From IMG/VR virus record IMGVR_UViG_3300030061_000230, positions 1 to 43,444 of that record: a stretch of 43,444 nt of DNA. One strand, written 5' to 3'. Origin of the DNA: a virus. Position numbers and translations under genes: made by a program. Every line of letters begins with the position of its first letter. Within the stretch, counting starts at the first letter, position 1. The notes below the pieces were generated by a model that worked only from the letters and a program-made list of their open reading frames with translations, searched no databases and had not been told where the DNA came from. Of this stretch, positions 23,617-43,444 are shown piece by piece.

Positions 23617-23619
23617 TAT

Positions 23620-24186
23620 AACTCACATGTTCTAATATACAAGCATCTAATCGTACAGTCTGATAGGAAGTATTCTACTTACCGCTTCCACGGTCACATA
23701 ATCAGGTGCAAACAATTGGCCCTATTGGCTCGTAACCTCGTGTATGATTGACTACGCAAGTTATCCCTCAATTAGAAGCGTTGTTCTTTATCACTGTTAT
23801 GTCAGGTCTGATACTTAGTTGCATTAGCTTATTACTAATTTTAAATCGCTACCAGTACAAACGATTCCTCGGTATCAGACTGTAGTTATAGATTTTTAAT
23901 TAATATTACATATTATCCTTTCGATTATTCTTCCTTGGCAGCTCCACGCAAGCCGTTCCTCGTAGCGTCCAACCTGTGGTAGGTTGTTCCTCACTTCGTC
24001 ACTATTGCGTTAACGCTTGCCAAGTCATCATGGTATGTGTAGCAGTGTTCACTATAGGTTGATTGTTGACATTAATGAGGTTTACCTGTTCGTAGTTCTC
24101 CTACGACTCTATTCTGCTACTAAACACAGCTTTGATTAGTGGAAAGGAACACCAACACTTTTGCAAGTTTACTGTATTCCATACCA
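23620..24186 (-). ncRNA. Candidate large structured RNA or structured leader, about 570 bases
   Basis: No credible gene occurs here on either strand. On the minus strand at least three closed domains can be traced. In the first, 24114-24120 pairs with 24039-24045 (7 bp), enclosing hairpin TCGTAG/CTACGA. In the second, 24018-24024 pairs with 23934-23940 (7 bp), enclosing AACCT/AGGTT. In the third, 23872-23880 pairs with 23806-23814 (9 bp), enclosing two hairpins, a three-way junction. Further short hairpins lie nearer 23660. The second domain holds two GAGGAAC copies in similar settings (CGAAGTGAGGAAC and CGCTACGAGGAAC). It may be a noncoding RNA or a leader. An origin is another possibility. 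I recognise no tRNA, tmRNA or RNase P. Confidence 0.6.
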
Positions 24187-25677: not shown

Positions 25678-25680
25678 TTA

Positions 25681-26397: not shown

Positions 26398-26408
26398 AAC
26401 TATCCTTT

Positions 26409-26714
26409 CTATTCTTCCTCATTATTAGTTACAAATTGACAATAAATGTCAATCATATCTGTTTCTTTATTCTTTCTTTGTAAAACATCAAATCTACCTA
26501 CATCAGATAAATGTTGTATATTTCTCTGTTGCATACTTTCGATATTATGTTTTACACCGCTAATCCATTTAGGTCTTGAACCTATTACATACCATGTATT
26601 AGGATTAGCTAACAGTACTTTCACTACTTCATCAGTAAGTAATGTCGGTCTTTTACCTCTATCACCTGTACTAATTGGTGGTGGTACCTTTGGATACATA
26701 CTGCTAGGTATCAT
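26409..26714 (-). CDS. Unknown small protein, 101 aa
   Basis: The fold looks alpha/beta: helix (LLTDEVVKVLLANPNTWYVI), a basic turn (GSRPKWISGVKHN) and strand-like RFDVLQRKN, DMIDIYCQFV, with an acidic end. The pattern of a small DNA-mimic or DNA-interacting accessory cannot be told from sequence. The ATG lies inside the end of the preceding gene (11-base overlap). Confidence 0.6.
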   Translation of the reverse strand: MIPSSMYPKVPPPISTGDRGKRPTLLTDEVVKVLLANPNTWYVIGSRPKWISGVKHNIESMQQRNIQHLSDVGRFDVLQRKNKETDMIDIYCQFVTNNEEE

Positions 26715-27174
26715 TTTTATCTACCTCCTTAAGGTATTCTTCTGCTTCGTTACCTACATTTTCAACTGCACCTTGTAGATTTACAATTGTCATGTCTTTA
26801 AGTTTGTCAATGTCATCCATTAATGCACATTGTATAGATGTAGGTTCCATATCAAGCCACGCTTTGAATATACCGTTATCTTCTGCAGCCTGTCTAATAG
26901 CTTCTATCTCATCAATAGTAAACGTGACATTATCTGCATCTTCTAGTATTTCTTTAGGTGGCATGAAACTTGTCATTGTTTCTGCTTTGGTTATTTGTAC
27001 TACATGCATTGCTGTTTGAATAGCAGTTAGTGAACTTGTAGCAGGCACATGAATAATCCATACATCTGGTTCTACAAACGTAGGCTTATCATCATGGCTA
27101 TCTTGATTCCAATAACCTAATTGTACTTCGTATATTTTATTATCTCTTTCTAGTATTTCTATATGATTTGGCAC
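26704..27174 (-). CDS. Unknown protein, 156 aa, first gene after a structured leader
   Basis: The chosen start is GTG at 27174, with AAAGGATATATT just before it. The longer frame to 27246 runs through the hairpin at 27187-27225 and is unlikely to be translated. The first half is beta-rich (IEILERDNKIYEVQLGYW, VWIIHVPATSSL), and the second half is helical (FTIDEIEAIRQAAEDNGIF, LMDDIDKLKDMTIVNL). No family is recognised. It begins the block that includes the ATPase/VWA pair. Confidence 0.6.
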   Translation of the reverse strand: MPNHIEILERDNKIYEVQLGYWNQDSHDDKPTFVEPDVWIIHVPATSSLTAIQTAMHVVQITKAETMTSFMPPKEILEDADNVTFTIDEIEAIRQAAEDNGIFKAWLDMEPTSIQCALMDDIDKLKDMTIVNLQGAVENVGNEAEEYLKEVDKNDT

Positions 27175-27186
27175 AATATATCCTTT

Positions 27187-27466
27187 CTTCTGTCGGTTGT
27201 GTGCATGTTCGGCAACCGACAGAAGGAAGTAAGGGCATGAATACACGTACGTATATGAATACTTCCTCTGTCAATTGCACGCTATTTATACGTTCAATTA
27301 CAACAGGGACTTGTTTTACTAATATAAATAGCTTGATAGATACTTCCACCTATTTACAGCACGCTGTAACGTACAGTTCATAATACCTATCAAGCTATCT
27401 ACATTATGGTTATCCTTCGCAGGATAGCTAGCAATTATTGGGACTAGCAATGTAAATAGCTTTGCG
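27187..27466 (-). promoter_or_regulatory. Structured leader with competing helices
   Basis: This 280-base gap contains a 13-bp hairpin (27187-27199 with 27213-27225), GGAAGTA/TACTTCC (27225-27231 with 27260-27266), and two helices that share bases. GCTATTTATA (27281-27290) pairs with 27323-27332. ATAGCTTGATAG (27328-27339) pairs with 27387-27398 over 12 bp. A hairpin TATCCT/AGGATA (27411-27426) has a GCGA (GNRA-type) loop on the minus strand. The first hairpin ends just upstream of the ribosome site of the next gene. Helices that exclude each other suggest a switch or attenuator. Confidence 0.6.
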
Positions 27467-27472
27467 TTTCAG

Positions 27473-27682
27473 TTACACATCTTCTGATACAAATGGTGAC
27501 TTAGTAAAAATAGCTGGTCTATGGCTTAATAATTCTGGATAATCTTTTACATTACTCATTATATTATCTACCAACGCTACCGCTTCTTCTTTATTGACAT
27601 CACTTGTAAAATAAAAATCAACTGTTAAACAATTTTCATCAACTTTTAAATTATCATCAACATATTCATATACTTCACTCAC
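27473..27682 (-). CDS. Unknown acidic protein, 69 aa
   Basis: Acidic, with a strand-helix pattern (CLTVDFYFTSDVNKEEAVAL, then LVDNIMSNVKDYPELLSH). This resembles half of a small ferredoxin-like fold, and the neighbouring gene at 27675 also has a ferredoxin-like pattern. It overlaps that gene by 8 bases. The function is unknown. Confidence 0.6.
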   Translation of the reverse strand: MSEVYEYVDDNLKVDENCLTVDFYFTSDVNKEEAVALVDNIMSNVKDYPELLSHRPAIFTKSPFVSEDV

Positions 27683-28271
27683 GATTAAACCTTACTGATT
27701 CTCGCATTGCTTCTAATGCAGTTTCATGTTCATTGTATATACGTTCAGTATCTTCTGGTGTCCATGGATATTCTGATACACCATCACCATTACCTAATTC
27801 TATATCCCATGTATTTTTAATAGTTAAATTAAATTTAATAGCTATATCATTAAGTAATCTAAATGGTTCTCCCCATGCTGATTCAAATCTAAAATGTAGT
27901 TCTCTACCAGATTCATCTATAGTATCACTAACTAATTCAGTTTGGCAGTCGCCCCATTTAGTTCCCCAATTATTATATTGCCAATCAATTGGTTGATATG
28001 TTCCATATTCTTTCATAAGTTTATCTTTAACCATATCCATCATTGGTCTAACACCATCTGCATCTTCATACCATGCATCATATCTAACGTCATCAATAGT
28101 TCTTGAACCTTGATGCAAGTTATTAAATTCTGTAGGCATTGGATTACATTTAGTAAAATCATACCAATCTTCTTCTTGTTCTTTATCATATTGTTTTATA
28201 GTTGCTAGAAATTCTGCAATATTATCATCACTACCGCTAATTTCACAACTGTTATATGTCCAATTAGGCAT
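27675..28271 (-). CDS. Api92/YubB-like ferredoxin-fold protein, 198 aa
   Basis: MPNWTYNSCEISGSDDNIAE at the start, CNPMPTEF near residue 43, WQYNNWGTKWGDCQ, and FRFESAWGEPFRLLND match the pattern of the YubB/Api92 family (DUF1281-like; MPNWCxN, PMP, NWGTKW, TAWSPP). The family is found on plasmids and phages, and its molecular role is not established. GAGGAGGAATAAT before the ATG is a strong ribosome site, embedded in the end of a 19-residue gene. Confidence 0.75.
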   Translation of the reverse strand: MPNWTYNSCEISGSDDNIAEFLATIKQYDKEQEEDWYDFTKCNPMPTEFNNLHQGSRTIDDVRYDAWYEDADGVRPMMDMVKDKLMKEYGTYQPIDWQYNNWGTKWGDCQTELVSDTIDESGRELHFRFESAWGEPFRLLNDIAIKFNLTIKNTWDIELGNGDGVSEYPWTPEDTERIYNEHETALEAMRESVRFNRE

Positions 28272-28272
28272 A

Positions 28273-28332
28273 TTATTCCTCCTCTAGTATTTCTAGTTCG
28301 CCATCAATAATAGATACTTGTTTACGAGTCAT
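28273..28332 (-). CDS. Possible micropeptide, 19 aa
   Basis: The frame MTRKQVSIIDGELEILEEE lies between two genes, with GGAGG six bases upstream of its ATG and an overlap with the end of the preceding gene. Its last codons form the ribosome site of the next gene. It may be a coupling peptide rather than a functional protein. Confidence 0.35.
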   Translation of the reverse strand: MTRKQVSIIDGELEILEEE

Positions 28333-28600
28333 CATCATCCTCCAATTTCTTTTTAAATGCTTCAATGTTTTCGTTAATGTCCATCATAAATGTTTTAACT
28401 CTGTCATTACCTTCTTCATTGATAAAATCAGTAAAATCATTTCTAAAATCATCAACTGAAAACACACTTGCCATAATTTTACGCATTAAATCTTTATCTT
28501 TATCCGTTAAATGAGTAACTATTGTCATTTGTATTGTGGATAACATAAACATTCTTTGTTCTATATTATCTAATATATCTTTAAGATTATTATCTGTCAT
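28322..28600 (-). CDS. Unknown helical protein, 92 aa
   Basis: Almost wholly helical and acidic (NLKDILDNIEQRMFMLSTIQ, then MDINENIEAFKKKLEDDDDS). No cysteines, no signal peptide and no recognised family. It overlaps the upstream gene by 4 bases (ATGA), so it is translated together with it. Confidence 0.6.
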   Translation of the reverse strand: MTDNNLKDILDNIEQRMFMLSTIQMTIVTHLTDKDKDLMRKIMASVFSVDDFRNDFTDFINEEGNDRVKTFMMDINENIEAFKKKLEDDDDS

Positions 28601-28797
28601 TCTTCCTCCTTTACTAAAGTTCTATACGCTTTTATTACTTGATACTCAACAGCTTCATGTAGCATACGACACCAACCACGAACAAAACTGTTAAGATTTC
28701 TATTTTGTCCTGCATTACGCAAGTCATTTCTTGTCCAATTTATTACTTGAATTAACTGTTGTTTAGATAACTCTTGTAATTTTTCATCTATATCCAT
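28597..28797 (-). CDS. Unknown small helical protein, 66 aa
   Basis: The start (MDIDEKLQELSKQQLIQVIN) looks like an amphipathic helix, followed by a basic segment (WTRNDLRNAGQNRN) and ending KEEE, which supplies the ribosome site of the next gene. GAAAGGAATAT precedes the ATG. A small DNA-binding or adaptor role is conceivable, but no motif proves it. Confidence 0.6.
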   Translation of the reverse strand: MDIDEKLQELSKQQLIQVINWTRNDLRNAGQNRNLNSFVRGWCRMLHEAVEYQVIKAYRTLVKEEE

Positions 28798-28858
28798 ATA
28801 TTCCTTTCGCTACCTATTCATTAGGATTAGCTTTATTTTTAAAAAAACACAAGTGCAA

Positions 28859-28889
28859 CGCACTCTGTGTGCATATTGGACAGAGTGCG
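28859..28889 (-). promoter_or_regulatory. Intercistronic hairpin with shared loop sequence
   Basis: CGCACTCTGT (28859-28868) pairs with ACAGAGTGCG (28880-28889). On the minus strand the loop region reads CCAATATGCAC, close to CCGAACATGCACA in the hairpin at 27187-27225, while the stems differ. The two may be one family of processing or stability elements. Confidence 0.6.
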
Positions 28890-28902
28890 ATGCGCGATTA
28901 TA

Positions 28903-28992
28903 TTATTTGTGGTATTGCAAATATATATAATCAGCATTGTGTTCTACTCCACATTGGTGGCAGTAGTTATTGTTTATAGTTGTATTTTGCAC
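28903..28992 (-). CDS. Possible zinc-binding micropeptide, 29 aa
   Basis: A GTG start after GGAAAGG encodes MQNTTINNNYCHQCGVEHNA and ends YLQYHK. C-x2-C and two later histidines suggest a minimal zinc site. The stretch 28797-29056 is otherwise empty apart from the hairpin at 28859. The small size and GTG start limit confidence. Confidence 0.4.
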   Translation of the reverse strand: MQNTTINNNYCHQCGVEHNADYIYLQYHK

Positions 28993-29055
28993 GATTACCT
29001 TTCCACTCGTTCATATCTAAGATATGCATCTAGGTAATAGGTGCCAACTATAAAA

Positions 29056-29268
29056 TTAAAATGGTGGGTCTGTAAAATCAGCCTCATTTATGTCTAGTTT
29101 CATGTCGATATTAAGCACAAGTAAATCATCACGATATCTTACTTCTGCTTTATCTTCTTGAAACCTAATGACAGCGTTACCAACATTTCTTTTTAATTGT
29201 TCCATGTCATTGTCATTAAGTAATTTTTCTAGCGTATCTAACGCTTCTTTTACTTTAACTATATCCAT
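29056..29268 (-). CDS. Unknown small protein, 70 aa
   Basis: The ATG at 29268 is chosen because AAAGGATATAGC lies directly upstream. A longer frame to 29316 would run into the structured RNA at 29288. A helical start (MDIVKVKEALDTLEKLLNDN) is followed by beta strands (AVIRFQEDKAEVRYRDDLLV). No family is recognised. Confidence 0.6.
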   Translation of the reverse strand: MDIVKVKEALDTLEKLLNDNDMEQLKRNVGNAVIRFQEDKAEVRYRDDLLVLNIDMKLDINEADFTDPPF

Positions 29269-29287
29269 TGCTATATCCTTTCTATAG

Positions 29288-29408
29288 ATAGCTAGTAACC
29301 TACCATATACGAACACTGTTTGTGCTACCGCTAACTATTGCTAGTTAATTTCAACCGCACTCATATTTCTCAGTGCTACTTTACCAAGTATGATAGGTTA
29401 CAAGCTAT
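29288..29408 (-). promoter_or_regulatory. Branched structured leader, about 120 bases
   Basis: ATAGCT (29288-29293) plus TAACCTA (29296-29302) pair with TAGGTTA (29394-29400) plus AGCTAT (29403-29408), a 13-bp closing helix with one 2x2 internal loop. Inside are hairpins AACTA/TAGTT (29333-29346) and GCACT/AGTGC (29357-29376), so the element is a multibranch junction. It ends just upstream of the ribosome site of the 70-residue gene. Confidence 0.65.
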
Positions 29409-29411
29409 GTA

Positions 29412-29642
29412 TTAAAATAGACTTTGTTGCTTAAGATTTATATTATTTAAAGATTGACGCGATACTTTCCATTCGTTTTCGCCACTAATAATTACTTTAA
29501 CACGACAGTCCATGTCATGTATATTTAGTGGATACCACTTGTCGTTACTATTAGATAGTCGCCACCAAGCGTCATCTTTATATATAATAGGCAACAAACA
29601 TACTCTACATACTTTCTTGCCTTTGAATTTATCTTTATCCAT
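29412..29642 (-). CDS. Zinc-binding-like small protein, 76 aa
   Basis: CRVC (residues 12-15) and a later H-D-M-D-C (NIHDMDCRVKV) form a plausible CCHC zinc site around a Trp-rich strand region (DAWWRLSNSNDKWYPL), a treble-clef-like layout. The basic N-terminus (DKDKFKGKK) suggests nucleic-acid or protein binding. GAAAGGAAATACT precedes the ATG. Confidence 0.6.
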   Translation of the reverse strand: MDKDKFKGKKVCRVCLLPIIYKDDAWWRLSNSNDKWYPLNIHDMDCRVKVIISGENEWKVSRQSLNNINLKQQSLF

Positions 29643-29669
29643 AGTATTTCCTTTCTTTAATAAATTCTA

Positions 29670-29699
29670 TAGTGCCTACCATAGGGATGATAGACACTA
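29670..29699 (-). promoter_or_regulatory. Intercistronic hairpin
   Basis: TAGTG (29670-29674) pairs with CACTA (29695-29699), and CTA (29676-29678) pairs with TAG (29691-29693) after one mismatched position. It lies between the 107-residue gene and the ribosome site at about 29651, as in other gaps of this unit. Confidence 0.5.
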
Positions 29700-29707
29700 A
29701 CAACTTA

Positions 29708-30031
29708 TTAAGAAGGATTAGACATTTCTAACACCTCTTGATTAGCTTTTTCGACTGCATTATCTTCTGAGATATCCTCAGCTATACTTGCACGATAAGC
29801 CTTGACTTGTGGACTTTCTGCATGCATGTCGAATAAAGCACTGATAGCATTACTTATGATATCAGTTTGTGCTTTAACTTCCGGTGCTTGGTTATCCAAG
29901 TTGAGAAACTTAGTAACAACCTTACCTTGTTTCTTGGAATACCAATTAACAGCGGTAAGCTCGCCATAAGTTTTTAATTCCTTACCTGTAGCACCGCAAT
30001 TTACTGCACCATACTTTAGTTCTTTTGACAT
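29708..30031 (-). CDS. Unknown early protein, 107 aa
   Basis: A beta-rich first half (LKYGAVNCGATGKELKTYGE, VNWYSKKQGKVVTKFLN) and helical second half. The ATG at 30031 is preferred since GAGG lies just upstream. The frame extends four codons to a GTG. It is the second gene of the minus-strand unit and so probably strongly expressed. No family is recognised. Confidence 0.6.
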   Translation of the reverse strand: MSKELKYGAVNCGATGKELKTYGELTAVNWYSKKQGKVVTKFLNLDNQAPEVKAQTDIISNAISALFDMHAESPQVKAYRASIAEDISEDNAVEKANQEVLEMSNPS

Positions 30032-30101
30032 AATTAACCTCACTTTCTTTTATTAATTTATAGTTTATATGTCGTGATATATACAGTATATATATATCAA
30101 A

Positions 30102-30848: not shown

Positions 30849-32771
30849 ATGGTAGATACGGTTAACAATGTCATCTGTATTGCGGAGGGTTGCAGAAAAA
30901 AATTAAAGGGCAGACAGGCAAAATTTTGTTCTGACCAGTGCAGAAAACGACAGTTCGCAAGAGATAAAGCACATAACAAGACAGTTGACACAAAACCTAT
31001 TAATATAGAACGTAAGTCTGACGAGGGCGACTACGCAAGCGTTAGACGAGGGCAGTATTACCGAGCTTTCGTAAGTGAAGGTATAGCTGAACAAGTTGCA
31101 ACTGGCGATATGGCAGTAGCACACGCGGCTTCCCTCCTTGGTTGCACTTCTGCTACTGTCAGTCGCATGCTTGCTGCATTTAAGATTGACACTAGAAACG
31201 AAGTAGCTGCAGAAGATTGGGAACTATCCGAAGATGCCAAAGCCTCATTAGAAAATTTTTCTAACTTCCGACAAAGATACTTTAGAACAGAGCTTGGAAA
31301 GAAGTATGACACCGCGCCTTTTCATACTAACTGGATAAATAACATTATAGATAGCATAGATAACGGTAAAGAGTTATTAATACTGTCACCCCCACGACAT
31401 GGAAAGACTGAATTGTTAATACACTTTGCTGTGTATCAGATATGTAAAAACCCTAACGTACGTATTATGTGGGTAGGTGGTAACGAAGACATTGCTAAGA
31501 ACGCATTATCTGCTGTACTTGACGTATTAGATACTAACGAAGAGTTACAAGAAGATTTTTGTTTACCAGGTACTAGCTTTAAACCAGATAACAGGTCAGG
31601 TAAAAACTGGTCACAAAATCAATTTACTGTAGGCACAAGAACAGTAGCAGGTATTAAGTCACCTACTATGGTTGCTGTAGGTAAAGGTGGAAAGATTTTA
31701 TCTAGGGACTGTGACATAATAATTGCAGACGACATTGAAGACCACCAAACTACTATGCAACCTGGTGCAAGAGAAAGTACAAGACAATGGTGGACAACAA
31801 CATTATCAAGTCGTAAAGAGGAACATACAGCTGTAATTGTAATTGGGTCAAGACAGCACCCTGATGATTTATATAACCATTTACTTGAATCAGATAACTT
31901 TACAAGCATAGTAGAAACAGCACATGAATTAGATTGTCAAATACCAGAGCATTTAGAAGATGAACATGTTGATTGTATGTTGTGGTCAAACAAACGTAGT
32001 TTTAAATGGTTAATGTCTAGGTTACATTCTGCAGAATCTACAGGTGGTAGACAAACATTCGAAATGGTTTATTTCAATCAAGCATATGTAGAAGGTACGC
32101 AAATATTTACAATGAACATAATTGACCAATGTATGCGACCTGACTTAGTACTAGGACAAGTATATAAAAATTTACATTTAGTTGCTGGACTAGACCCTGC
32201 ATCAAGTGGCTACCAAGCAAGTGTATTGTGGGGTATAGACCAGTACAGAGGTGAGCTTTATTTAGTTGACCTAGAAAATAGACGTGGTGGTGGTATTAGA
32301 GCTGCACTAGACCAAATGGCACAATGGTTACATGATTATGATTGTAGACATTGGATAGTAGAAGAAAATGGTTTTCAATCTGCTATTAGACAAGATGCAG
32401 CTATAAAAGAATTTACATTACGTACAGGCATTAGTGTACAAGGACACTTAACAGGAAAAAATAAACATGACCCTCTTTATGGTGTAGGTGCAATGGCTGA
32501 TTTGTTTGAAGACAAAAGAATACACCTACCTACTGGTGATGGTGAATCTAATGCAAAAGTACAGAAATATAGGCAACAACTGTTATACTTTGATGGAAAA
32601 CCTGTTTCTAAAAGGAACAAGGAAAAAACAGACATAGTTATGGCTAGTTGGTTTCCTATGAAAGTTTTTAGGCGTATGCAAAAAGAGCATGCTGCTGACA
32701 TAGGGTTAGATTATAACCCTAGTTATGGAGATTATAAGATGACAGATATGAACGAAGCACCATGGGCATAG
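30849..32771 (+). CDS. terL: Terminase large subunit with N-terminal zinc-finger and HTH region, 640 aa
   Basis: The ATPase has Walker A SPPRHGKTE (180-188) and Walker B DIIIADDIED (289-298). The nuclease half follows, starting with GLDPASSG and including WIVEENGFQ. Unusually, the first 115 residues hold a four-Cys knuckle (C10, C15, C27, C31; AKFCSDQCRKRQF) and a helix-turn-helix (HAASLLGCTSATVSRMLAAF). No separate small terminase gene is seen, so the fused region may recognise the packaging site. The start ATG at 30849 is the first in frame after the promoter. The portal start overlaps its end by 10 bases. Confidence 0.9.
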   Translation: MVDTVNNVICIAEGCRKKLKGRQAKFCSDQCRKRQFARDKAHNKTVDTKPINIERKSDEGDYASVRRGQYYRAFVSEGIAEQVATGDMAVAHAASLLGCTSATVSRMLAAFKIDTRNEVAAEDWELSEDAKASLENFSNFRQRYFRTELGKKYDTAPFHTNWINNIIDSIDNGKELLILSPPRHGKTELLIHFAVYQICKNPNVRIMWVGGNEDIAKNALSAVLDVLDTNEELQEDFCLPGTSFKPDNRSGKNWSQNQFTVGTRTVAGIKSPTMVAVGKGGKILSRDCDIIIADDIEDHQTTMQPGARESTRQWWTTTLSSRKEEHTAVIVIGSRQHPDDLYNHLLESDNFTSIVETAHELDCQIPEHLEDEHVDCMLWSNKRSFKWLMSRLHSAESTGGRQTFEMVYFNQAYVEGTQIFTMNIIDQCMRPDLVLGQVYKNLHLVAGLDPASSGYQASVLWGIDQYRGELYLVDLENRRGGGIRAALDQMAQWLHDYDCRHWIVEENGFQSAIRQDAAIKEFTLRTGISVQGHLTGKNKHDPLYGVGAMADLFEDKRIHLPTGDGESNAKVQKYRQQLLYFDGKPVSKRNKEKTDIVMASWFPMKVFRRMQKEHAADIGLDYNPSYGDYKMTDMNEAPWA

Positions 32772-34555
32772 AAAATTTAGATATTAAAACATATAAAGAA
32801 ATTGTCCATAATGCTGCAGAACTTACATCAGGTAAGTTAGTTCAAGAAAGACAAGTACAGAAAGCTAGAATAAAAGCTATTCTTAATGGTGGTGCAGATG
32901 GTATAAAAGCATTACTAGGTAATACAATGGAAACCTCTGATGCTGATTTATTACCAGCTCCTAACATGTTGCAATCTGGTATTGACCGACTTGCACAAAA
33001 AGTTGCAGGCATACCTCAAGTACGAGTAGACGTACCTAATGATAATGATTCAACTAGAAGTAAACAACGTGCAGAAAAACTAGAACGTATTGTTACTAAC
33101 TATGATGACAAACAAAATTTAATGAGCCAGTTGCAACAAGCTGCTAGGTGGTTACCTGGTTATGGTTATTGTGCTTGGGTAATAACAACAAAACGCGATA
33201 CAAATGGTTTTGTTTATCCAAGTGCAGAACTACGTGACCCTTACGATACATTTCCAGGAAACTTTGGTCCAGACCAACAACCTAGAGAAATGGCTGTTAT
33301 AAGACGTATACCTAGATATAAACTTGCACAGATATATCCAGAGTTTGCAGAACAAATATTAAAACAAGATGATGATGAGGGTGATGAGCTTAATGGTGAT
33401 TTAGCTGCACCTTTTATGTCATATGAAAATAACAGAGAACAAAACTGGGAAGACAATACTTACTCAGGTGTAAGAATTATTGAGTATTACGACATGGGTG
33501 GTACTTACGTAGTATTCCCAGAACGTAATATGATTTTAGATTTTATACCTAACGTTTTATCTACACCACCTTTTGTGTTTATGAAACGTACATCCTTTGA
33601 CCAACTTAAAGGACAGTATGACCACGTAATAGGTTTGATGGCAATGATGGCAAAGATAAACATTATGTCAGCAATAGCAATGGAAGATTCTGTATTTACA
33701 GAAACTAACATATCAGGAGAGATAGAATCCGGACAATATAGAAAAGGCAGATTTGCAGTAAACTATCTTGCTCCTGGTACACAAGTTTCCAAACCAATGA
33801 ACAATATGCCGTATCAGTTGTTCCAACAAATAGATAGATTGGAAAGACAATTGCGTATGGTAGGAGGTTATCCAGTTACTGATGATAGCCAATCACCTAA
33901 CTCATTTGTTACTGGTGCAGGACTGTCAGAACTTAATAGCACTATGTCATTAATGATTAGTGAGTATAGAGATATTATAAAACATGCAATTACACAAATG
34001 GACTCTAAGAGATTAGAAATGGATGTTATATTATCTTACTCACAAGGCATAAGTAAAAAACCTATGGCAGGTTATTTAAATGGTTCTGCGTTTTCAGAAA
34101 ACTATAAACCACTAGCTGATATTGGTGGTGATTACAAAACTAGACGTATCTATGGTGTTATGGCTGGTTTTGATGAACCACAAAAAATTGTAACTGGATT
34201 GCAATTATTACAAGCAGGTGTTATAGACGTAGAAACATTACAAGATAATATTGATGGTTTAGAAAACATAGCAAAAGTACAAGAACGAATAAGAAAAAGC
34301 AAAGCTGAACAAGTATTGTTTGACAGTATACTAGCAAGGTCTGCACAAGGTGACCCATCTGCAACTATGGCTGCAATAGCTATATACGAGTATCCATCTG
34401 CTATCACAGATATTATGAAGCAGTTTTATACTCCACAAGAACCACAGATGACTCCTGAGCAAGAAGCTATGATACAACAACAAATGATGCAACAACAAGC
34501 TATGCAGGGTGGAGGACAAAATGCACCAACGATGGCACAAGCATTTGGAATATAA
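32762..34555 (+). CDS. Portal protein, 597 aa
   Basis: It lies directly after the terminase. Its layout is that of a portal: an N-terminal helical lead, LLPAPNMLQSGIDRLAQKVA, a mixed wing region (YGYCAWVITTKRDTNGFVYP, DPYDTFPGN), a stem with membrane-like helices (HVIGLMAMMAKINIMSAIAM), GGYPVTDDSQSPNSFVTGAG, and a Gln/Met-rich crown tail. I identify it by context and pattern, since portals have few invariant residues. The ring forms the vertex through which DNA is packaged. Confidence 0.8.
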   Translation: MGIENLDIKTYKEIVHNAAELTSGKLVQERQVQKARIKAILNGGADGIKALLGNTMETSDADLLPAPNMLQSGIDRLAQKVAGIPQVRVDVPNDNDSTRSKQRAEKLERIVTNYDDKQNLMSQLQQAARWLPGYGYCAWVITTKRDTNGFVYPSAELRDPYDTFPGNFGPDQQPREMAVIRRIPRYKLAQIYPEFAEQILKQDDDEGDELNGDLAAPFMSYENNREQNWEDNTYSGVRIIEYYDMGGTYVVFPERNMILDFIPNVLSTPPFVFMKRTSFDQLKGQYDHVIGLMAMMAKINIMSAIAMEDSVFTETNISGEIESGQYRKGRFAVNYLAPGTQVSKPMNNMPYQLFQQIDRLERQLRMVGGYPVTDDSQSPNSFVTGAGLSELNSTMSLMISEYRDIIKHAITQMDSKRLEMDVILSYSQGISKKPMAGYLNGSAFSENYKPLADIGGDYKTRRIYGVMAGFDEPQKIVTGLQLLQAGVIDVETLQDNIDGLENIAKVQERIRKSKAEQVLFDSILARSAQGDPSATMAAIAIYEYPSAITDIMKQFYTPQEPQMTPEQEAMIQQQMMQQQAMQGGGQNAPTMAQAFGI

Positions 34556-34715: not shown

Positions 34716-35136
34716 AAAACGTTCTAATAGAGGTGGATATAGACAACCTGCTAATCCTGCACCTGTAGCTACACCAAATAGAAACAGAACGGACGGAGGA
34801 CCAGGAAATAAGAAACAACCTCTTAGAAGGCTTCCTGATGCCGCTTATGGTGAAAATAAAGCATTTATGAGTGGACAACGTGCAGTTGATGGATTACCTA
34901 AAGTAGAACCTATACCAGTACCAGGACAACAATTATCACAAACATTGTATGGTCCATCAGAAAAACAGTATCAAAAAGCTACTTCTGGAAACATTATAGA
35001 CATAAACAATGATGGTATAGCAGATGAAACACTGCAAAATGATGTAGATTTATTATTAGAAGAAATGTCAGCAAGAAATCCAGGAAATGTATTACTTACA
35101 CAGTTAATTAGCACAAGACAGTCACAGAGGTTTTAG
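34708..35136 (+). CDS. Basic, partly disordered virion-region protein, 142 aa
   Basis: GTG start at 34708 behind ACAGGAGAG. The first 45 residues are Arg/Asn/Pro/Gly-rich and probably disordered (SKKRSNRGGYRQPANP), the middle is a Pro-rich linker, and the last 50 are acidic then helical (NDVDLLLEEMSARNPGNVLL). No recognised domain. The basic tail could contact DNA. Its stop overlaps the GTG of the giant gene (TAGTG), so the two are translationally coupled. Confidence 0.6.
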   Translation: MSKKRSNRGGYRQPANPAPVATPNRNRTDGGPGNKKQPLRRLPDAAYGENKAFMSGQRAVDGLPKVEPIPVPGQQLSQTLYGPSEKQYQKATSGNIIDINNDGIADETLQNDVDLLLEEMSARNPGNVLLTQLISTRQSQRF

Positions 35137-38100
35137 TGTTAAACTTTCTTGAGGAAAAAGCATATGCACAACAAGGCATAAGAGAAACTAATAGACGAGA
35201 ACAGGCACGTCAATTCTTAGATAAAAACCCACAATTTGAAACTAGGTTTACTGCTTTAACTGATAGATACCCAATGTTGCCAGCTGAGATATTGCAACCT
35301 ATGGCATTAGAAACAAATATACCTGTAGACTCTCAAGCATTTGGTGAATTAAATGACCAATATGCAAAAGAAATGATGGCTCAACAAGCTAATACTTGGT
35401 ATAACAATAAGTACGGTGGATACAAAACAGGTAATGCAGATGATTTAATTGCAAACTATATGAATGTTGCTGGTTATAAAGATTATGAATCTGATATACA
35501 AGCTAAGTTTAAAGAACGTAGAAAAAGTGATAGAACAATATTTACCCCAATTAGAACTGGTACTTTATGGTTAGTTGCATTAGGTGAAGGATTAAGTGAA
35601 TTATTAATCAAATATAATCCTGCTGTAACTGGTAGGTTAGAAAAACCTAAGATGAAACTTAACAAAGAAACTGGTGAATTTGAAGTTGATACTGGAAATG
35701 TAGATGATTTAAATATATTACAAAAAGCAGTTTCATCAGTACCTGGTGGACAGTTTTTAGCTTTACCAAACAATAGACCACAGTTTGTAGGCAGAGTTTT
35801 TGCATATGCACAACAAATGAATGCTTTAGATAGGTTCATGGAAGAAGGTAAAACATTAAATGATGCACAACAATATTTACCTATTGACTTTTCTAAATCA
35901 AAATATCTTGATGATTTAGGTACAAAAGAGGGTTGGTTAGAAGAAACTAAAGGTTGGATGAAATTTGCAGGTGAAGCTGCGAAGGTAGGTGGTTCACCAT
36001 ACGTATGGGAAATGATGAATCAACTACGTCAAGGTAATCCTGTAAACATAAATACTAAGAAATGGTTAAGCGTAGAGTCAGTTATGGCAAAAGACGACCC
36101 ATTAGTACAAGACTTGATGGATATGGGATTTTCTGAATTAGAAGCAACTAAAAGATTTTATGAAGAAAAGGGTGTTCCAATTGTTAGACCTAATGAAGGT
36201 AGTGATATTAACTGGACATCTATACAAAAACCTAATCAAATAGAAATATTTTCTGGACGTAGAGCAGTATTGTCACCATTGTTAGCAGACCAACAAGCTG
36301 TTAATAATGACATGAATAGCAACAAAATTGCTGGTATTAAAGAACCATACTCATACGGTAGATATCAAGCTGGTTTAAAGTATCGTGTTGGTTCAGAACA
36401 ATACAATGTTTTGTCAGGTTGGATAGATGGGTCATTACGTGCAGTATCTGAACTAGGTTTTTATAAAGGTGTTAAAACAATAAAGAAACTACAAATGTTA
36501 TCTAAGACTGTTAATCCTTTAACAGAAATAGGTAAAGAAGGTTTATTTAGTCCTCTTAAGAAAAAAGAAATGATTAATGGTTGGATTAAAACCAATAAGA
36601 AAAATCCTACTAATGGACAAGCTATAGATAACGTAGATGAGTTTATACAAAACTTTGATGGTTATGCTGGTAGGTTAGTACCTGAATTAACAAAAGAATT
36701 AAAATTAGCACGTAAAAAAACACGCAAATTACAAAAACAATGGGGTTTAGTTGGTGGCAAACTACGTAGAACATTTGGTAAGACTGGTGATGACTTAGTA
36801 GATACACTAAGAGATTCCGGTAAACTATCAGCATACACTGCAAACAAATCAGGAATGGTATTAGAAATGGACCCATTTACTAGATTCTTTCCTCCTGAAA
36901 TTAAAAAAATAATGTTAGATATCAAAGATGAAGCATCTATGGAAGCAGTATTTCGCAGAATGTATGGTAATGGTATAAGAATGCCAGGTATGGACCAAGT
37001 GTTTATGCTTGACTCTTTACCTAAAGGTTCATCAGCTTTAGCTTCTAATATTGCAAGTAAGGTTAAAGGCAAGGCTGTTACTGTTCCTTCTATAGGTTCT
37101 TTAGCTGGTAGAGCTATAAATAGAACTATTAAAACAGTTGATGAGTCATTACTTAAATCAAAAGAAATGTATAAGTCAAATAGTCTTACAGCACGTAAAA
37201 CACAATATGCAGATGATACACAAGTAGTATCAAGAGCTGATTTTAACAAGTGGCAAGAAACAGGTGTAATGTCTACATCAAGAAATATGGGTTTTTATTC
37301 TGAGTTAACAGCTGGTATGAGTCCAAGATTTAGAAAATTATTTGCTATACAACCAGGTACAAGGCTTGTATATAACAATAAAGCTGAAGCATACAGAACT
37401 ATGGTTAATCACATGATGTCAACTGGATATGATACATATGCTGCAGATAGATTTATAGATGCTTTTTTAGGTATGAAGTACACAATTAACAATGTTAATG
37501 ACATAGCTAAAAAATTAGGTGTATATGATGCAGGAATGGTTGGTAGACGTAAAGGTGAAGAAGCTGCAAAAATGATGCGTAAATATATTAATAGTAAGTT
37601 TGACAATGAAACTAGAGTTGAAAACTATATAAACGACCCTACAGGAAAAATGATGCCTGATATGTGGTCACCTAGATATTACAATCCTGAAACTGGTGAA
37701 ACATCTTTTATTGCATCTGCTACAAAAATAGTAGAAATGAACCAACAAGGTGCGCCTTTAACTAACAATAGAGCTTTAAATAAAATGTTATCTAACTTTT
37801 TTGAAATAGACCCTAATTTTGATGCTAATGATTTTTTTGCTACAACAAAAAATTATGCTAAAAATTTAAAGAAAAAAGGACAACCAGTAAGAATACCTAC
37901 AAAAGATATTGAAGATGGAACTATTAATCAGTCATTAGATGTTTTATTAAATACAGTTATAAAACCTAACTTAATAGCTAAACCAGCATTAACACAAAGG
38001 GTTGTGGCAGAGGAACAAGTTGCATTTGCTGTATTTCCACAATTATTTGGTATGTTGTCATTTCAACCACAAAAGTATTTTTCTTGGATGTTTAGTTATG

Positions 38101-41057
38101 GATATACTCCAAAAGCTAGATTAAATCCTTTTTCAAGATTAGCTAAAAACATTGTAGATTCTGGTAAAGATGTTAATGAAGTAACAATGTCACATTACTT
38201 TCACGAAGCTATAAATGCACAGTTTTCTATATCTAATTTAAATTTAGGAAACATAAACAAAAGATTAATTGATTATGTACCAGTTTCTCCTGAAAATACA
38301 TTAGCTATGGATGGATATGTATTTCAATATGTAAAAGCATGGCAAGACCCTATTATGAGTAGATTAGCTGCAATACCTAATGGTAATCCTGAAGAAATAA
38401 TTAAATGGTCTAAAACAGCAGAAGCATTAAAACTCAAAGAAAGATTAATTAGTTTAAGTGGTAATAAATATATTGGTGATTATGAAACTACTATACGTAG
38501 ACAAGAAAACTGGTTAAGGTATTTATTTCAAAAAGAAGGTGAAATAAGAATGCGTACTGGTATGCCTATGAAAGAAGGTAAAGATTATTTTTATTTTCCA
38601 CAAGGTTCAGCTAGAGCAGGCGAGGCTTCATTTGATATATCGCATTCGTTTACTGGTTCTGCTGAATTAAGAAGAGGTATTGCTGAAGGTAAATTTATAG
38701 ATGATTTAGGTAATGAAGTTAAACTTGCACCTAGATGGTGGGCTGAAAACCCATATGAAACATTTAAACTTAAAGATGCTAAAAAATTAAAAGAAGGTTT
38801 ACAAAGCTATATAGATAAAGTAGATGATATAACAAATGATAAAATATATGATTTTGGTAGAGTAGTTGTACCTAAACCAGAGTTATTAAACAAGTATTCA
38901 CAATTAGGTGGTAAGTTAGATAGATTATACGGTGGTTGGTTTGAAACATTATTACAATCTCCTACTGCAAGATTAAACAGAGCGCCTATATTTAAACAAT
39001 ATAGATGGTTAAAGATAAGTGCAAACTTTCACAAGTTTAGTCCTCAGTTACAAAAGAAATTTATTAAAGAAGCTGAAGCTGCAAAGATACCTAAGTACAT
39101 GCTAGATGATATTAAAGGTGTTACTACATCTGGTTCTATAAATGATTATGAAGGTATTAGTAATTTTGCTAATTCATTTGCTGTACAAAATATGAAATCA
39201 ATATTGTATGACACAAAGAATAAACATAGAGTATCTGAAATACTTAGAAATTTCTATTACTTTCCAGAAGTATTTATTGAAATAGGTAAAAGATGGAGTA
39301 AAGCAGTAGCTGCTAATCCATATAGTCTTAAAGCTGCAAGTAACGCATCAATGGGCGCACAAAGTGTTGGAGGTACAATAAGTTACTTTGGACAGGGTGC
39401 ATGGCAAGAAGACCCATTAACAGGTGAAATGGTATTTGTTTATCCATGGCAACCAATGCACAGTAATTTAGCTTTTGGACAAGATGTAAGATTTAGAGCA
39501 ACATCAGTAGGTTATGGTAGTGGTGTAAACATGGTTAGTACACAAGGATGGCCGTCTGCTCAGCCAATGGTTCAATATGCACAGAATATGTTATTTGATA
39601 GTAAAGCTGGACAAATGTTAGGTTTTGACCAAGAATTTCAAGATGAGTTTTTTGGAAGTTTTCCACCTCCAGAATCATTAATGGAGGCTTTTAATTTAGG
39701 AGATTTACCTTTCGTACAAAAATTTAGAACATCTGGTAATCCTGTTGATGTTATAAAAGAAAGATTTAGTGATACTTATGTAGACCCTGATAACTATATG
39801 TGGAACTGGGATATGAGTAATAAATTTAATTCTATGCGAGCAGAAACAACTATTGAATTTTGGGAAGATATAAAAGTATCTGATTCTGATTTAATACTTT
39901 TAGAAAGTGGAAAAATAGATAAGTACATACATGAGTTAATGGGTAAAGATGATAATGGTAAAAAAATGTGGGATGGCAATAGAAAACTACCTACAGTTGA
40001 TGAAATGTCTGAATGGTTTGCTACAAATGACAATAGACCTTATGAATACAAAAAAGGTGAATTATCTTGGGAAATATTAGATAGAGCATTAATGATGTAT
40101 TCTGCACATCAAGCTAGATGGTTTGCATTAACAAGAGGAATAACACAATTTGGAACTCTTACTGGTATGCATTTGAGAAGTGCAGCACAAGATAAAACAG
40201 GTAAATGGTGGGCAACAACTGTACTTGCAAAAGAGTATGATGATTTAGTACAACAATATGGTGACCATAGATTAGCTGCTGAAGCATTTTCTATTAAGTT
40301 TGGATTAGACCATGGTTATATTTTAACTAGCTCTAAAGATAAAAGTCCTATGGCTACAGTATGGGATGTTGAAATAAAATCATGGAAAGATAAACACAAA
40401 ACAGAAATAAATGCTTTACCTTTAACATATCATTATTTAAATCCATCTAATCCTGAAAATGAAAGAACATACTCAGATATTATTGCACAGTCTACAGTAA
40501 ACCCTGAATCATTTATATTATCAGCTAATGACACAGTTGCTTGGTTTAAGTATGACAGATTTAAAGAACAAACAGCACGTGCAGTAAAAAATGGTGATAT
40601 TAATCCTGCTGAAAAAGAATATATGGATAAGTCATTTAGATTAGCATTAATAGAAACACACCCAGGTTTTCAAGCATCTTATGGACAAACAGAACCTGCA
40701 ACAGTTAAAGATAGATTTAAAGAACTTAGAACTAAATGGACAACATCTGAGTTTGCTAACAATTATGAAGCAGGTAAAGGTTTTAATGAATATTATAAAT
40801 ATTGGCTAGATGCTGAAGAACTATCAAGAGAATATAGTAATAGTAATTCAAGTACTTGGTGGTTAACATCTAATGACCCACAAGCACATGCATTAAGAAG
40901 GCAAATGTCTGATATAGCATACTCTGTTATAGCTGAGTATCCAGATTTTATGCCTGTGTATCAAAACGTAATTATACGTTTATGGTCTAGTGATAGAGAT
41001 GTTTTAGAGTATAATAGTTATCGATATAACGAAAGAAGAATGATGGGGGATAAATAA
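35136..41057 (+). CDS. Giant virion (internal or ejection) protein, 1973 aa
   Basis: GTG start at 35136, overlapping the preceding TAG. The protein is almost one seventh of the genome. It is mainly helical and Trp/Tyr/Asn-rich, with no signal peptide, tape-measure-like periodicity, lysozyme motif or phage RNA polymerase motif that I can see. Basic segments (ELKLARKKTRKLQKQWG) suggest DNA contact. A moderately hydrophobic middle (VAFAVFPQLFGMLSFQPQKY) may meet membranes. Its position between portal and scaffold and its size recall large podovirus proteins ejected ahead of DNA. The functional claim is inferred from context. Confidence 0.75.
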   Translation: MLNFLEEKAYAQQGIRETNRREQARQFLDKNPQFETRFTALTDRYPMLPAEILQPMALETNIPVDSQAFGELNDQYAKEMMAQQANTWYNNKYGGYKTGNADDLIANYMNVAGYKDYESDIQAKFKERRKSDRTIFTPIRTGTLWLVALGEGLSELLIKYNPAVTGRLEKPKMKLNKETGEFEVDTGNVDDLNILQKAVSSVPGGQFLALPNNRPQFVGRVFAYAQQMNALDRFMEEGKTLNDAQQYLPIDFSKSKYLDDLGTKEGWLEETKGWMKFAGEAAKVGGSPYVWEMMNQLRQGNPVNINTKKWLSVESVMAKDDPLVQDLMDMGFSELEATKRFYEEKGVPIVRPNEGSDINWTSIQKPNQIEIFSGRRAVLSPLLADQQAVNNDMNSNKIAGIKEPYSYGRYQAGLKYRVGSEQYNVLSGWIDGSLRAVSELGFYKGVKTIKKLQMLSKTVNPLTEIGKEGLFSPLKKKEMINGWIKTNKKNPTNGQAIDNVDEFIQNFDGYAGRLVPELTKELKLARKKTRKLQKQWGLVGGKLRRTFGKTGDDLVDTLRDSGKLSAYTANKSGMVLEMDPFTRFFPPEIKKIMLDIKDEASMEAVFRRMYGNGIRMPGMDQVFMLDSLPKGSSALASNIASKVKGKAVTVPSIGSLAGRAINRTIKTVDESLLKSKEMYKSNSLTARKTQYADDTQVVSRADFNKWQETGVMSTSRNMGFYSELTAGMSPRFRKLFAIQPGTRLVYNNKAEAYRTMVNHMMSTGYDTYAADRFIDAFLGMKYTINNVNDIAKKLGVYDAGMVGRRKGEEAAKMMRKYINSKFDNETRVENYINDPTGKMMPDMWSPRYYNPETGETSFIASATKIVEMNQQGAPLTNNRALNKMLSNFFEIDPNFDANDFFATTKNYAKNLKKKGQPVRIPTKDIEDGTINQSLDVLLNTVIKPNLIAKPALTQRVVAEEQVAFAVFPQLFGMLSFQPQKYFSWMFSYGYTPKARLNPFSRLAKNIVDSGKDVNEVTMSHYFHEAINAQFSISNLNLGNINKRLIDYVPVSPENTLAMDGYVFQYVKAWQDPIMSRLAAIPNGNPEEIIKWSKTAEALKLKERLISLSGNKYIGDYETTIRRQENWLRYLFQKEGEIRMRTGMPMKEGKDYFYFPQGSARAGEASFDISHSFTGSAELRRGIAEGKFIDDLGNEVKLAPRWWAENPYETFKLKDAKKLKEGLQSYIDKVDDITNDKIYDFGRVVVPKPELLNKYSQLGGKLDRLYGGWFETLLQSPTARLNRAPIFKQYRWLKISANFHKFSPQLQKKFIKEAEAAKIPKYMLDDIKGVTTSGSINDYEGISNFANSFAVQNMKSILYDTKNKHRVSEILRNFYYFPEVFIEIGKRWSKAVAANPYSLKAASNASMGAQSVGGTISYFGQGAWQEDPLTGEMVFVYPWQPMHSNLAFGQDVRFRATSVGYGSGVNMVSTQGWPSAQPMVQYAQNMLFDSKAGQMLGFDQEFQDEFFGSFPPPESLMEAFNLGDLPFVQKFRTSGNPVDVIKERFSDTYVDPDNYMWNWDMSNKFNSMRAETTIEFWEDIKVSDSDLILLESGKIDKYIHELMGKDDNGKKMWDGNRKLPTVDEMSEWFATNDNRPYEYKKGELSWEILDRALMMYSAHQARWFALTRGITQFGTLTGMHLRSAAQDKTGKWWATTVLAKEYDDLVQQYGDHRLAAEAFSIKFGLDHGYILTSSKDKSPMATVWDVEIKSWKDKHKTEINALPLTYHYLNPSNPENERTYSDIIAQSTVNPESFILSANDTVAWFKYDRFKEQTARAVKNGDINPAEKEYMDKSFRLALIETHPGFQASYGQTEPATVKDRFKELRTKWTTSEFANNYEAGKGFNEYYKYWLDAEELSREYSNSNSSTWWLTSNDPQAHALRRQMSDIAYSVIAEYPDFMPVYQNVIIRLWSSDRDVLEYNSYRYNERRMMGDK

Positions 41058-42253
41058 TGCCATTATCAGAACAAGATGTAGCTTTAGTAGAAGAACAATT
41101 AGATTTTAGTTTAGAAGATTTAATTAAAAATCCTAGTGAATATGGTATATCTGATGAAGCGTTAAATACTTTAGAAGATTTATTAGTTACCTTACCTGAA
41201 GGTAGTTATACAACATTTGTTAATTCATATAACTCAATGAAATTAAAAAGTGATGAACAGAATTTACCACCAGTTCCATCAGATTTAGGTAGTTCATCAG
41301 ATGAAAGAACCTTTGTTAAAAAAGATAAAGCAGGAAATGTTATATTTGAAAACGGAGAACCTTTAACAGAAACTATAAAGTTAGATGATTTTTTTCCATC
41401 AGCTAATTTTTATGATACATTTTATGACACATTAACTAGAACTGAAGTACAAGCTATACAAGATAAAGCTATTAATGCAGGGATAATTGATGAAGAAGAT
41501 TTAGGTGATGAAATTAATGGTATTAAAGGTACTGTAACAGAAGGTTTAGTAATAGATATATTAAATTATGCTATTAACGAAATGGAAACTTTTACTCCTG
41601 GTTCTCAAGAACGTAATGCTTTTCTTGAAAGAGTAGAAGCAGGAAAGAGTAAAGGTGCAGCATTTGACATAAATGCTTTATTTGGTGGTGTAAATTTTGC
41701 TGAAAATAAATTAAGTGATAACCAAATACTTAGTAGGCAAATATTTCAAATGGCATTTAATGAATATGAATTTAATTTTAAATCAGGTAAAAAAGCATTT
41801 GATGCACAAAGAGCTAGAGAAATAGTTGCAGAAAATATATTACCTAGCAATAAAGACATACTACAAGATTTAGAAGATACATATTTTGCATTATATGGTG
41901 AAGAAATGAGTGACCGTAGAAAACAAGAATTTATAGATGATATAGGTCAACAATGGTCACCTTATGTACAGGCTTTAATAGCACAAGATAAGTACATACG
42001 TGCAGGAGAAATATATAAAACATTTATTGAAAAACCTACTGTCGACCCTATAACAGAAATGCCGTCAACTAAATATGTAAAGTTAGATACACCAGTATTA
42101 CAAGATGCTTTTAATGTAGAAAATCCATTAGCAGCTGCACAACAACAATTAAGAGATGAAGCAGAAAGTGATGCTCAATTTCAACAACAAGGTGCAACTG
42201 TAAGAGATGCACAAAAAGCATACATGACTTACATAATGGGTGGCCGTGGATAA
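41057..42253 (+). CDS. Putative virion protein, 398 aa, acidic
   Basis: Helical and acidic, with a start rich in Glu and Leu (EQDVALVEEQLDFSLEDLIK), a central FFPSANFYDTFYDTLTRTEV and a Gln/Ala-rich coiled tail (NPLAAAQQQLRDEAESDAQF). No family is recognised. It is joined to the giant gene and to the SLOG-domain gene by TAATG overlaps. Together with these and the genes at 666 and 1844 it forms a set of five large proteins expected in or around the capsid. Confidence 0.7.
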   Translation: MPLSEQDVALVEEQLDFSLEDLIKNPSEYGISDEALNTLEDLLVTLPEGSYTTFVNSYNSMKLKSDEQNLPPVPSDLGSSSDERTFVKKDKAGNVIFENGEPLTETIKLDDFFPSANFYDTFYDTLTRTEVQAIQDKAINAGIIDEEDLGDEINGIKGTVTEGLVIDILNYAINEMETFTPGSQERNAFLERVEAGKSKGAAFDINALFGGVNFAENKLSDNQILSRQIFQMAFNEYEFNFKSGKKAFDAQRAREIVAENILPSNKDILQDLEDTYFALYGEEMSDRRKQEFIDDIGQQWSPYVQALIAQDKYIRAGEIYKTFIEKPTVDPITEMPSTKYVKLDTPVLQDAFNVENPLAAAQQQLRDEAESDAQFQQQGATVRDAQKAYMTYIMGGRG

Positions 42254-43444
42254 TGCTGAAAGAGTTTACAGCATCAATACAAAAGCAGAATTTCGTACCA
42301 GAACAAAGCGGAGATGTATACGACCCTGATACACGTTTAAAGAAAGAAGCTATGAAAAAACGTGTTCAAGCACGTATGGCTGCTAAAAAAATGGTATCTC
42401 AAGATTTACAATTAAAAAAAATAATATCTGGTATGCAAAAAAATGTAGACCAATATGGTATTGAAGCTGCAAAAGAATTAGGTTTAGATTATGGTGGTTC
42501 AGTTAATAAAGGTTTTAAAGTAGTTCCTGCAGGTAGTAATAGTCCTAATTTTCAAGAATTTGTAGATAGTGGTAAGTGGGAAGAAATAGAGTCACAAGAC
42601 TATAGAGATAGAACTAAACTTAATGCACAAAATGCAGATGGTACTGTATGGTTTGGTAAAACTGGTACAGATAGTGCAGGTCATAATGCAACTAAAAGAT
42701 ATTCTGGTAATAAACCTTGGATAGAAAATCCAACTGACAAAGAACTTAGAAAATGGTTAATTGACAATAAGATAGAAACATTAAATGTTGCTGGTAATAG
42801 GTCTTATGGTACAGAAGAATTAGGACAACAAGCACAAGAAACTATTGTAAAAGCTGTACAAGGAGATACACCTACATTTGAAACAGTTAAAAGATATTCA
42901 GTAGAAGATTTACGTAATAATACAGATAAAATATATATTTTTGGAGATAATACAGAAGGTTGGGGTAAAGGTGGTCAAGCAATTGTACGTGATGAACCTA
43001 ATGCATTTGGTATTTCTACTAAAGATAGTCCTACACAATTTATGTCTGATGATAATTTTAAAGCTAACAAAGCAAAAATAGATGCAGATATAGCAGCTAT
43101 TAAAGCAGATGGTAGACCAATTGTATTTCCTGAAGATGGTATTGGTACAGGTAGAGCAGATTTACAAAATAAAGCTCCAAGAACTTGGGCTTATTTACAA
43201 AAAGAATTAAATAAATTAAAAGGAGATAATTTTGGTGCTAGTTTAGGTGCAGCTAAGTTAAACGACCCTAATGTATTTGATGAATTAGTAGAAGAATATA
43301 CACCTGGTAGTAAATTCCTTGATGATTTTAAAAGCAGTATTCCTGGATATATTCTTGTACCATTTGAACAAATGCTTGAAAGTGGATTAAAAGCATCTGG
43401 TTATAGTAATGCAGCTAAAGTAGCTGGTAAGTTAGTTGCATACG
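42253..43444 (+). CDS. SLOG (cpYpsA-like) plus second conserved domain in a virion-region protein, 5' part
   Basis: The frame opens at ATG 42253 and runs off the window. With bases 2-673 it makes 510 residues. Residues about 57-203 match cpYpsA/molybdenum-carrier-like SLOG proteins: IISGMQKNVDQ for the usual IISGGQTGVDR, KELGLDYGGSVNKG, YRDRTKLNAQNADGTVWFG and ETLNVAGNRSYG. The first glycine loop is altered (GMQKN for GGQTG). Residues about 214-317 hold a domain with KIYIFGDNTEGWGKGGQAIV, EPNAFGISTK and FPEDGIGTG, known in many phages (I believe DUF7831) without known function. SLOG folds bind nucleotide-derived ligands. Here the ligand is unknown. Confidence 0.8.
   Translation, partial: MLKEFTASIQKQNFVPEQSGDVYDPDTRLKKEAMKKRVQARMAAKKMVSQDLQLKKIISGMQKNVDQYGIEAAKELGLDYGGSVNKGFKVVPAGSNSPNFQEFVDSGKWEEIESQDYRDRTKLNAQNADGTVWFGKTGTDSAGHNATKRYSGNKPWIENPTDKELRKWLIDNKIETLNVAGNRSYGTEELGQQAQETIVKAVQGDTPTFETVKRYSVEDLRNNTDKIYIFGDNTEGWGKGGQAIVRDEPNAFGISTKDSPTQFMSDDNFKANKAKIDADIAAIKADGRPIVFPEDGIGTGRADLQNKAPRTWAYLQKELNKLKGDNFGASLGAAKLNDPNVFDELVEEYTPGSKFLDDFKSSIPGYILVPFEQMLESGLKASGYSNAAKVAGKLVAY
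43113..43444. repeat. Contig-end repeat, right copy
   Basis: Equivalent to bases 1-332, with the single difference at 43443. See the left copy for interpretation. Confidence 0.9.

Follow-up and report, generated by a model that had tools for sequence, protein, structure and literature searches.

Phages and conjugative elements encode multidomain polyvalent proteins that are predicted to be packaged and delivered together with the DNA (Iyer et al. 2017, PMC5512222), in a study whose main text leaves the SLOG domain unnamed. Viruses also encode members of a NAD-ADP-ribose (NAD-ADPr) network, which comprises SLOG domains of the YpsA clade, NADAR, NUDIX, and DUF4326, includes SLOG-NADAR-Macro fusions, and has been predicted to act in counter-signalling (Iyer et al. 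2022, PMC9503650). A third described system is that of the internal proteins of phage T4 (IPI, IPII, IPIII, and Alt), which possess capsid targeting sequences and are mostly non-essential. In T4, a shared address carries poorly conserved bodies into the head, from which they are ejected into the host, and IPI has an anti-defence, anti-restriction function (PMC9026906).

The protein described here shares features with each of these systems. It is encoded by IMGVR_UViG_3300030061_000230, a virus record of 43,444 nt with 34% GC, the whole of which was analysed and is referred to as the window. The first 332 nucleotides (positions 1-332) are repeated at 43113-43444 with one mismatch, and the most plausible interpretation is a circular or terminally redundant record. 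An open reading frame at 42253-43444 (plus strand, residues 1-397) runs open through the end of the record and resumes at 2-673 (plus strand), where it overlaps the next gene (666-1844). The end repeat implies that these two pieces join into a single protein of 510 amino acids, as proposed in an earlier note on this DNA. The join is supported by the related locus L001, where the N- and C-terminal parts, 83-85% identical to the window protein, lie within one open reading frame. The protein comprises a SLOG domain (residues 57-199), a DUF7831 domain (residues 213-317), and a C-terminal tail (residues 365-479), whose hydrophobicity is too low for a membrane span. Rfam and tRNA searches gave no matches.

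The earlier note also placed the gene in a capsid/ejection block, and it does lie between the portal gene and the SU10-type major capsid gene. The block, entirely on the plus strand, consists of the large terminase gene (30849-32771; GpA-type ATPase, score just below the Pfam cut-off), the portal gene (32762-34555; tblastn to annotated actinophage portals), a 142-aa gene, the gene of a 1973-aa giant protein without Pfam family (35136-41057), proposed to be an internal or ejection protein, and a fast-diverging 398-aa gene (41057-42253), a proposed member of an ejection cassette. These are followed by the gene under study, which we call the slot gene, by the 392-aa gene B (666-1844), the 354-aa gene C (1844-2908), a conserved 152-aa gene that is scaffold-like by position only (3115-3573), and the major capsid gene (3610-4731; Pfam PF17236, E=2.5e-40). 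The slot gene overlaps the stop codon of the upstream gene and the start codon of the downstream gene. Given these overlaps and the one-strand arrangement, it would be expected to be expressed late, together with the capsid genes. The portal and capsid proteins are 23-28% identical to their closest relatives in isolated phages, most of which infect Actinobacteria (Mycobacterium, Propionibacterium, Streptomyces). The giant protein has no match in isolated phages, and its profile retrieved nothing useful from the PDB. No member of this group was found in the collection of isolated phages searched with portal, capsid, and giant protein. Elsewhere in the window, the minus-strand genes within 20207-30043 include those of a calcineurin-like phosphoesterase (22317-23423) and a MoxR-like AAA+ ATPase (25681-26397), as well as a weak Rad52 match (21467-22060, minus strand), and a gene of the DUF5675 family is found at 15723-16307 (E=1.8e-23).

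The 152-aa gene was used as an anchor to collect 80 viral loci from IMG/VR; a search with the slot protein itself gave five loci, and the contigs of three of these were reached by the anchor as well. Across the 80 anchored loci, the order of giant gene, ~400-aa gene, slot gene, B, C, scaffold-like gene, and capsid gene is near-invariant, and in most of them the slot gene shortly overlaps both neighbours. The slot protein is far more variable in length (135-1518 aa, mean 540, coefficient of variation 0.59) than its neighbours (coefficient of variation 0.03-0.10). Six loci have no slot gene, consistent with an accessory role. A hidden Markov model (HMM) of the C-terminal tail, grown from five proteins including the window protein, describes a shared region of ~115 aa (residues 365-479; 233-577, plus strand in the window). 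It was detected near the C-terminus of 43 of 60 distinct slot proteins; in the other 17, the tail is absent or too divergent. Among the 1,061 open reading frames of the loci, the HMM matched slot genes only, with duplicates and one copy truncated at the end of a contig counted in. The shortest slot proteins contain little beyond the tail. The correlation between tail identity and neighbour identity is weak (rho 0.23-0.25), since most pairs are at background identity, and we therefore make no claim that the tail tracks its neighbours. The slot is thus one gene at a fixed position, with a shared tail and many different N-terminal parts.

Like polyvalent proteins, slot proteins can be multidomain, exhibit variable domain combinations, and occur in portal-terminase phages: they can unite at least two functionally distinct domains, as in the window protein, and are encoded together with the portal-terminase virion genes. 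Unlike polyvalent proteins, they correspond to one syntenic gene with one tail family, and their recognised cargo is limited to domains linked to NAD and ADP-ribose; the metallopeptidase, methylase, helicase, and ART domains typical of polyvalent proteins were not found in them. With regard to the T4 internal proteins, the working logic is alike, without any sequence relation being claimed. In T4, the address is a short propeptide at the N-terminus, which is cleaved off by proteolysis, whereas the shared part of the slot proteins, our proposed address, is a C-terminal domain of ~115 aa.

The N-terminal domain of the window protein (42421-42849, plus strand) is a cpYpsA-like SLOG domain, in agreement with the initial reading of the sequence. 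It matches Pfam PF12694 (E=3.9e-15) over profile positions 1-142 of 145 with 56.3 bits, well over the gathering cut-off of 26.2. Its AF2 model (pLDDT 87) matches 3IMK, a cpYpsA-family protein (Foldseek, TM 0.78, E=1.2e-9), which is also the sole PDB match of the sequence profile (E=1.2e-24). The window SLOG shares its sequence profile, fold, and conserved loop motifs with the cpYpsA proteins, from which it differs by its fusion to DUF7831 and the tail and by its glycine-rich loop. The alteration of this loop, also noticed beforehand, is real: residues 60-66 (42430-42450, plus strand) read GMQKNVD, where the other phage cpYpsA domains of the alignment exhibit GMQxG[AV]D (GMQIGGD in one). Compared to the GGQTG-type loop of the family, the first glycine, the glutamine, and the aspartate are kept, and the second and third glycines are replaced. 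The loop is the same in the three closest relatives and is therefore not a sequencing error. The ligands of SLOG domains generally bind in the loops that follow strands 1, 4, and 6, and the invariant residues of the phage SLOG alignment cluster in these same loops. The replacement of a loop glycine by asparagine in the window protein counts against the role proposed below.

The second domain (residues 213-317; 42889-43203, plus strand) is DUF7831 (Pfam PF25176, E=3.6e-32, 111.1 bits for a cut-off of 27). It contains a DGIGTG motif as well as the FGDN and GKGGQA motifs that the earlier note gives for its second domain. Its AF2 model (pLDDT 92) has no match in the PDB at E<=0.001; the best fold matches there are DUSP phosphatases, at a TM of about 0.32. 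The FGDN and GKGGQA motifs raised the idea of a macro domain, which we rejected, no macro fold being present among the top 50 PDB matches. A relationship to SLOG was rejected as well (hhalign probability 0.2). SLOG and DUF7831 were folded separately; a joint alignment misplaced fragments. In a library of viral structures, the best matches of the DUF7831 model are other DUF7831 proteins, from Caulobacter and Rhizobium phages, from giant viruses, and among very large proteins of crAss-like phages. The giant viruses of this library that carry DUF7831 infect protists (Tupanvirus, Hyperionvirus, Yasminevirus). The DUF7831 profile is also linked to phrog_2072 proteins, which exhibit FVFGSN motifs (probability 89, E 2.5e-6). 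In other phage contigs (L102-L136), DUF7831 is found in reading frames of ~1,500-2,800 aa (e.g., L104:2-8374 and L131:653-8137), in which few other Pfam domains are recognised; such long frames of other viral contigs sometimes also carry SLOG, NADAR, or phrog_9995. Bacterial genomes scanned with one DUF7831 sequence and strict patterns yielded no relative, and the domain was not found in the literature searched.

Scanned against Pfam and PHROG, 59 slot proteins yielded cpYpsA SLOG, DUF7831, NADAR, and NUDIX as cargo, along with two families without known function, phrog_2072 and phrog_9995. The only Pfam families above their cut-offs are SLOG, NUDIX, and DUF7831, and all lie within the NAD-ADPr set or are fused to it. 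Strict local profiles, with strict seeds for SLOG, were used for counting; an iterated HMM of SLOG had extended into adjacent sequence. By these profiles, 24 of 60 slot proteins have a cargo domain, and the non-slot genes of the loci have none. In the slot genes of related phages, SLOG is found in two circularly permuted forms: the glycine loop is either first, as in the window (residues 57-199), or last, with the sequence GGQSG[FY]D (L004, residues 418-594; L005, L012, L035, and L079). The slot NUDIX domains keep REALEETGL or a close variant. The slot NADAR domains are below the Pfam cut-off (E=8e-6), but their profile retrieves YbiA and the structure of a NADAR from the PDB, and they have preserved EHAYQ together with a histidine where one is reported for phage NADARs (PMC11125620). 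phrog_9995 is possibly a divergent form of NADAR: the two families are found in 11 and 6 slot proteins, respectively, and never together, the profile comparison gives a hhalign probability of 18 (E 0.0014), and there is a weak match to Pfam NADAR-DarT1 (E=0.11). phrog_9995 exhibits TIEDVWQ where NADAR exhibits SVEHAYQ, and an aspartate at the catalytic position of the last strand. Examples are L079:5586-5975 and L001:10985-11368, and the family also occurs in Pseudomonas and Delftia phages. A relationship of phrog_9995 to SLOG was considered and rejected (hhalign 0.4). An additional slot module weakly resembles DUF4326 (E=0.05-0.06).

Of the domain set of the viral NAD-ADPr network, the window protein has SLOG and the slot proteins of its relatives have NADAR and NUDIX, the DUF4326 likeness being only weak (E=0.05). 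The viral versions of that network are typically stand-alone and enriched in myoviruses (PMC9503650), whereas those of the slot are fused and occupy a fixed place in the virion block of phages of roughly 40 kb. The explanation that we favour, tentatively and at somewhat less than even confidence, is that the slot protein is delivered by the virion and binds or breaks NAD- or ADP-ribose-derived molecules of the host early in infection. The constant C-terminal tail would bring the protein into the particle and then, along with the DNA, into the cell. The N-terminal part, i.e., SLOG and DUF7831 in the window, would be an exchangeable cargo that binds or breaks small molecules derived from NAD, such as cyclic or linear ADP-ribose derivatives. 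These molecules would be alarm signals or toxins made by the host, on which the cargo would act before the phage genes are expressed.

The main rival explanation, which we consider unlikely, is that the cargo reverses the ADP-ribosylation of nucleic acids and thereby shields the incoming phage DNA or the early RNA from ADP-ribosyltransferases of the host (e.g., DarT). The six slot proteins with NADAR and the 11 with a NADAR-like domain are consistent with such an activity, as phage NADARs hydrolyse ADP-ribosyl-guanine in vitro; however, a tested phage NADAR gave cells no protection from DarT1 (PMC11125620). Moreover, NUDIX cargo is better suited to free nucleotides, and the window protein possesses neither NADAR nor a NADAR-like domain, so this explanation suits the NADAR cargo better than that of the window.

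The cargo modules are exchanged between phages, as near-identical modules are found on divergent backbones: modules that are 70-96% identical occur on backbones with less than 40% identity, and in 18 of the 30 pairs of cargo domains with at least 70% identity, the ~400-aa backbone gene is less than 40% identical. For instance, the DUF7831 domains of the window and of L004 are separated by a dS of 0.11, and the giant, 400-aa, and B proteins of the two are 25-29% identical (26% for the 398-aa neighbour). L001, whose portal is 96% identical to that of the window, has kept SLOG and the tail, with 256 aa in place of DUF7831. This replacement consists of the DUF4326-like module followed by phrog_9995, and the module (L001:10631-10972) is 92% identical to that of L004 (L004:9638-9979). 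It sits at different places in these two proteins, the other parts of which are unlike. The dN/dS of the cargo domains is 0.2-0.47, which indicates that the modules are maintained by purifying selection.

The genes around the slot diverge as well. In loci with 70-100% identical portal and capsid proteins, the identity of the giant, 400-aa, and B proteins can be as low as 20-35%. For the giant, 398-aa, B, and C genes (35136-42253 and 666-2908 in the window), it is 20-60% where portal and capsid are 78-100% identical (loci L001-L005, L012, and L057-L063), and L058 and L060 have 100% identical capsid proteins and 26% identical homologues of the 398-aa gene. The pattern resembles that of an ejection cassette that is either swapped between phages or subject to very rapid evolution.

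These exchanges also bear on a second alternative, in which the slot protein would be a component of the particle or of the ejection machinery, SLOG and DUF7831 binding a nucleotide or DNA in the head and aiding assembly or ejection, without acting on any host signal. The location among structural genes, the persistence of the tail in slot genes nearly devoid of cargo, and the binding of single-stranded DNA by some SLOG proteins (DprA/Smf; cited in PMC7272460) are in line with this role. We nevertheless consider it improbable, as the cargo is freely exchanged, the gene is missing from six loci, and NUDIX and NADAR enzymes have no evident structural use. Slightly less probable still is that the cargo adjusts the NAD metabolism of the host, or senses NAD derivatives and switches the behaviour of the infection, outside any counter-defence. 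In jumbo phages, fusions of SLOG to processing domains have been interpreted as a signal toggle (PMC7824862), but the Pfam and PHROG scans revealed no NAD-synthesis domain in any slot protein. Finally, a specific antagonist of Thoeris, sequestering the cyclic ADP-ribose isomer to which ThsA responds, is very improbable: it would agree with the membership of the SLOG superfamily and with the action on cyclic ADP-ribose predicted for viral SLOGs of the YpsA clade (PMC9503650), but fold and sequence both point to cpYpsA 3IMK, ThsA is absent from the 50 best fold matches of the SLOG model and from the sequence-profile matches, and the SLOG of ThsA belongs to the STALD family (PMC7272460). The parallel with ThsA drawn in the earlier note is thus unsupported, and of its broader proposal, a virion-delivered protein acting on a host nucleotide signal, what stands is the cargo gene in the virion block and the NAD/ADP-ribose theme of the relatives' cargo, without the ThsA specificity.

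Delivery by the virion of a cargo directed at NAD-derived molecules is, accordingly, the reading that we retain among those considered. Several observations count against it or its parts: besides the altered SLOG loop and the low hydrophobicity of the window protein's tail, DUF7831 has no confident fold match in the PDB, and among the 60 slot proteins, 36 are without recognised cargo and 17 without a match to the tail HMM. A cargo slot is the most economical account of the sequences, and the constant tail probably loads the protein. A broader version, possible but doubtful, is that these phages possess a dedicated cargo gene at a fixed place, that the C-terminal tail is a general address for loading into the particle, that pre-made enzymes against NAD signalling are traded between phages, as modules, through this gene, and that DUF7831 is a new fold that binds or processes ADP-ribose derivatives. 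The exchangeable one-gene cargo slot is new, and the general idea extends published predictions (PMC5512222, PMC9503650).

A little-known group of uncultured phages carries cargo related to NAD and ADP-ribose, which suggests that the particle may bring ready-made countermeasures to the NAD alarms of the host. If this is true, counter-defence would act ahead of any phage gene expression. The prediction that NAD-based immunity is disarmed at the entry stage has so far been based on scattered domain finds. One slot gene, one tail family, and many cargos would turn it into a testable system, in which the tail predicts loading and the list of cargos predicts which host molecules are relevant, with DUF7831 and phrog_9995 as candidate ADP-ribose enzymes.
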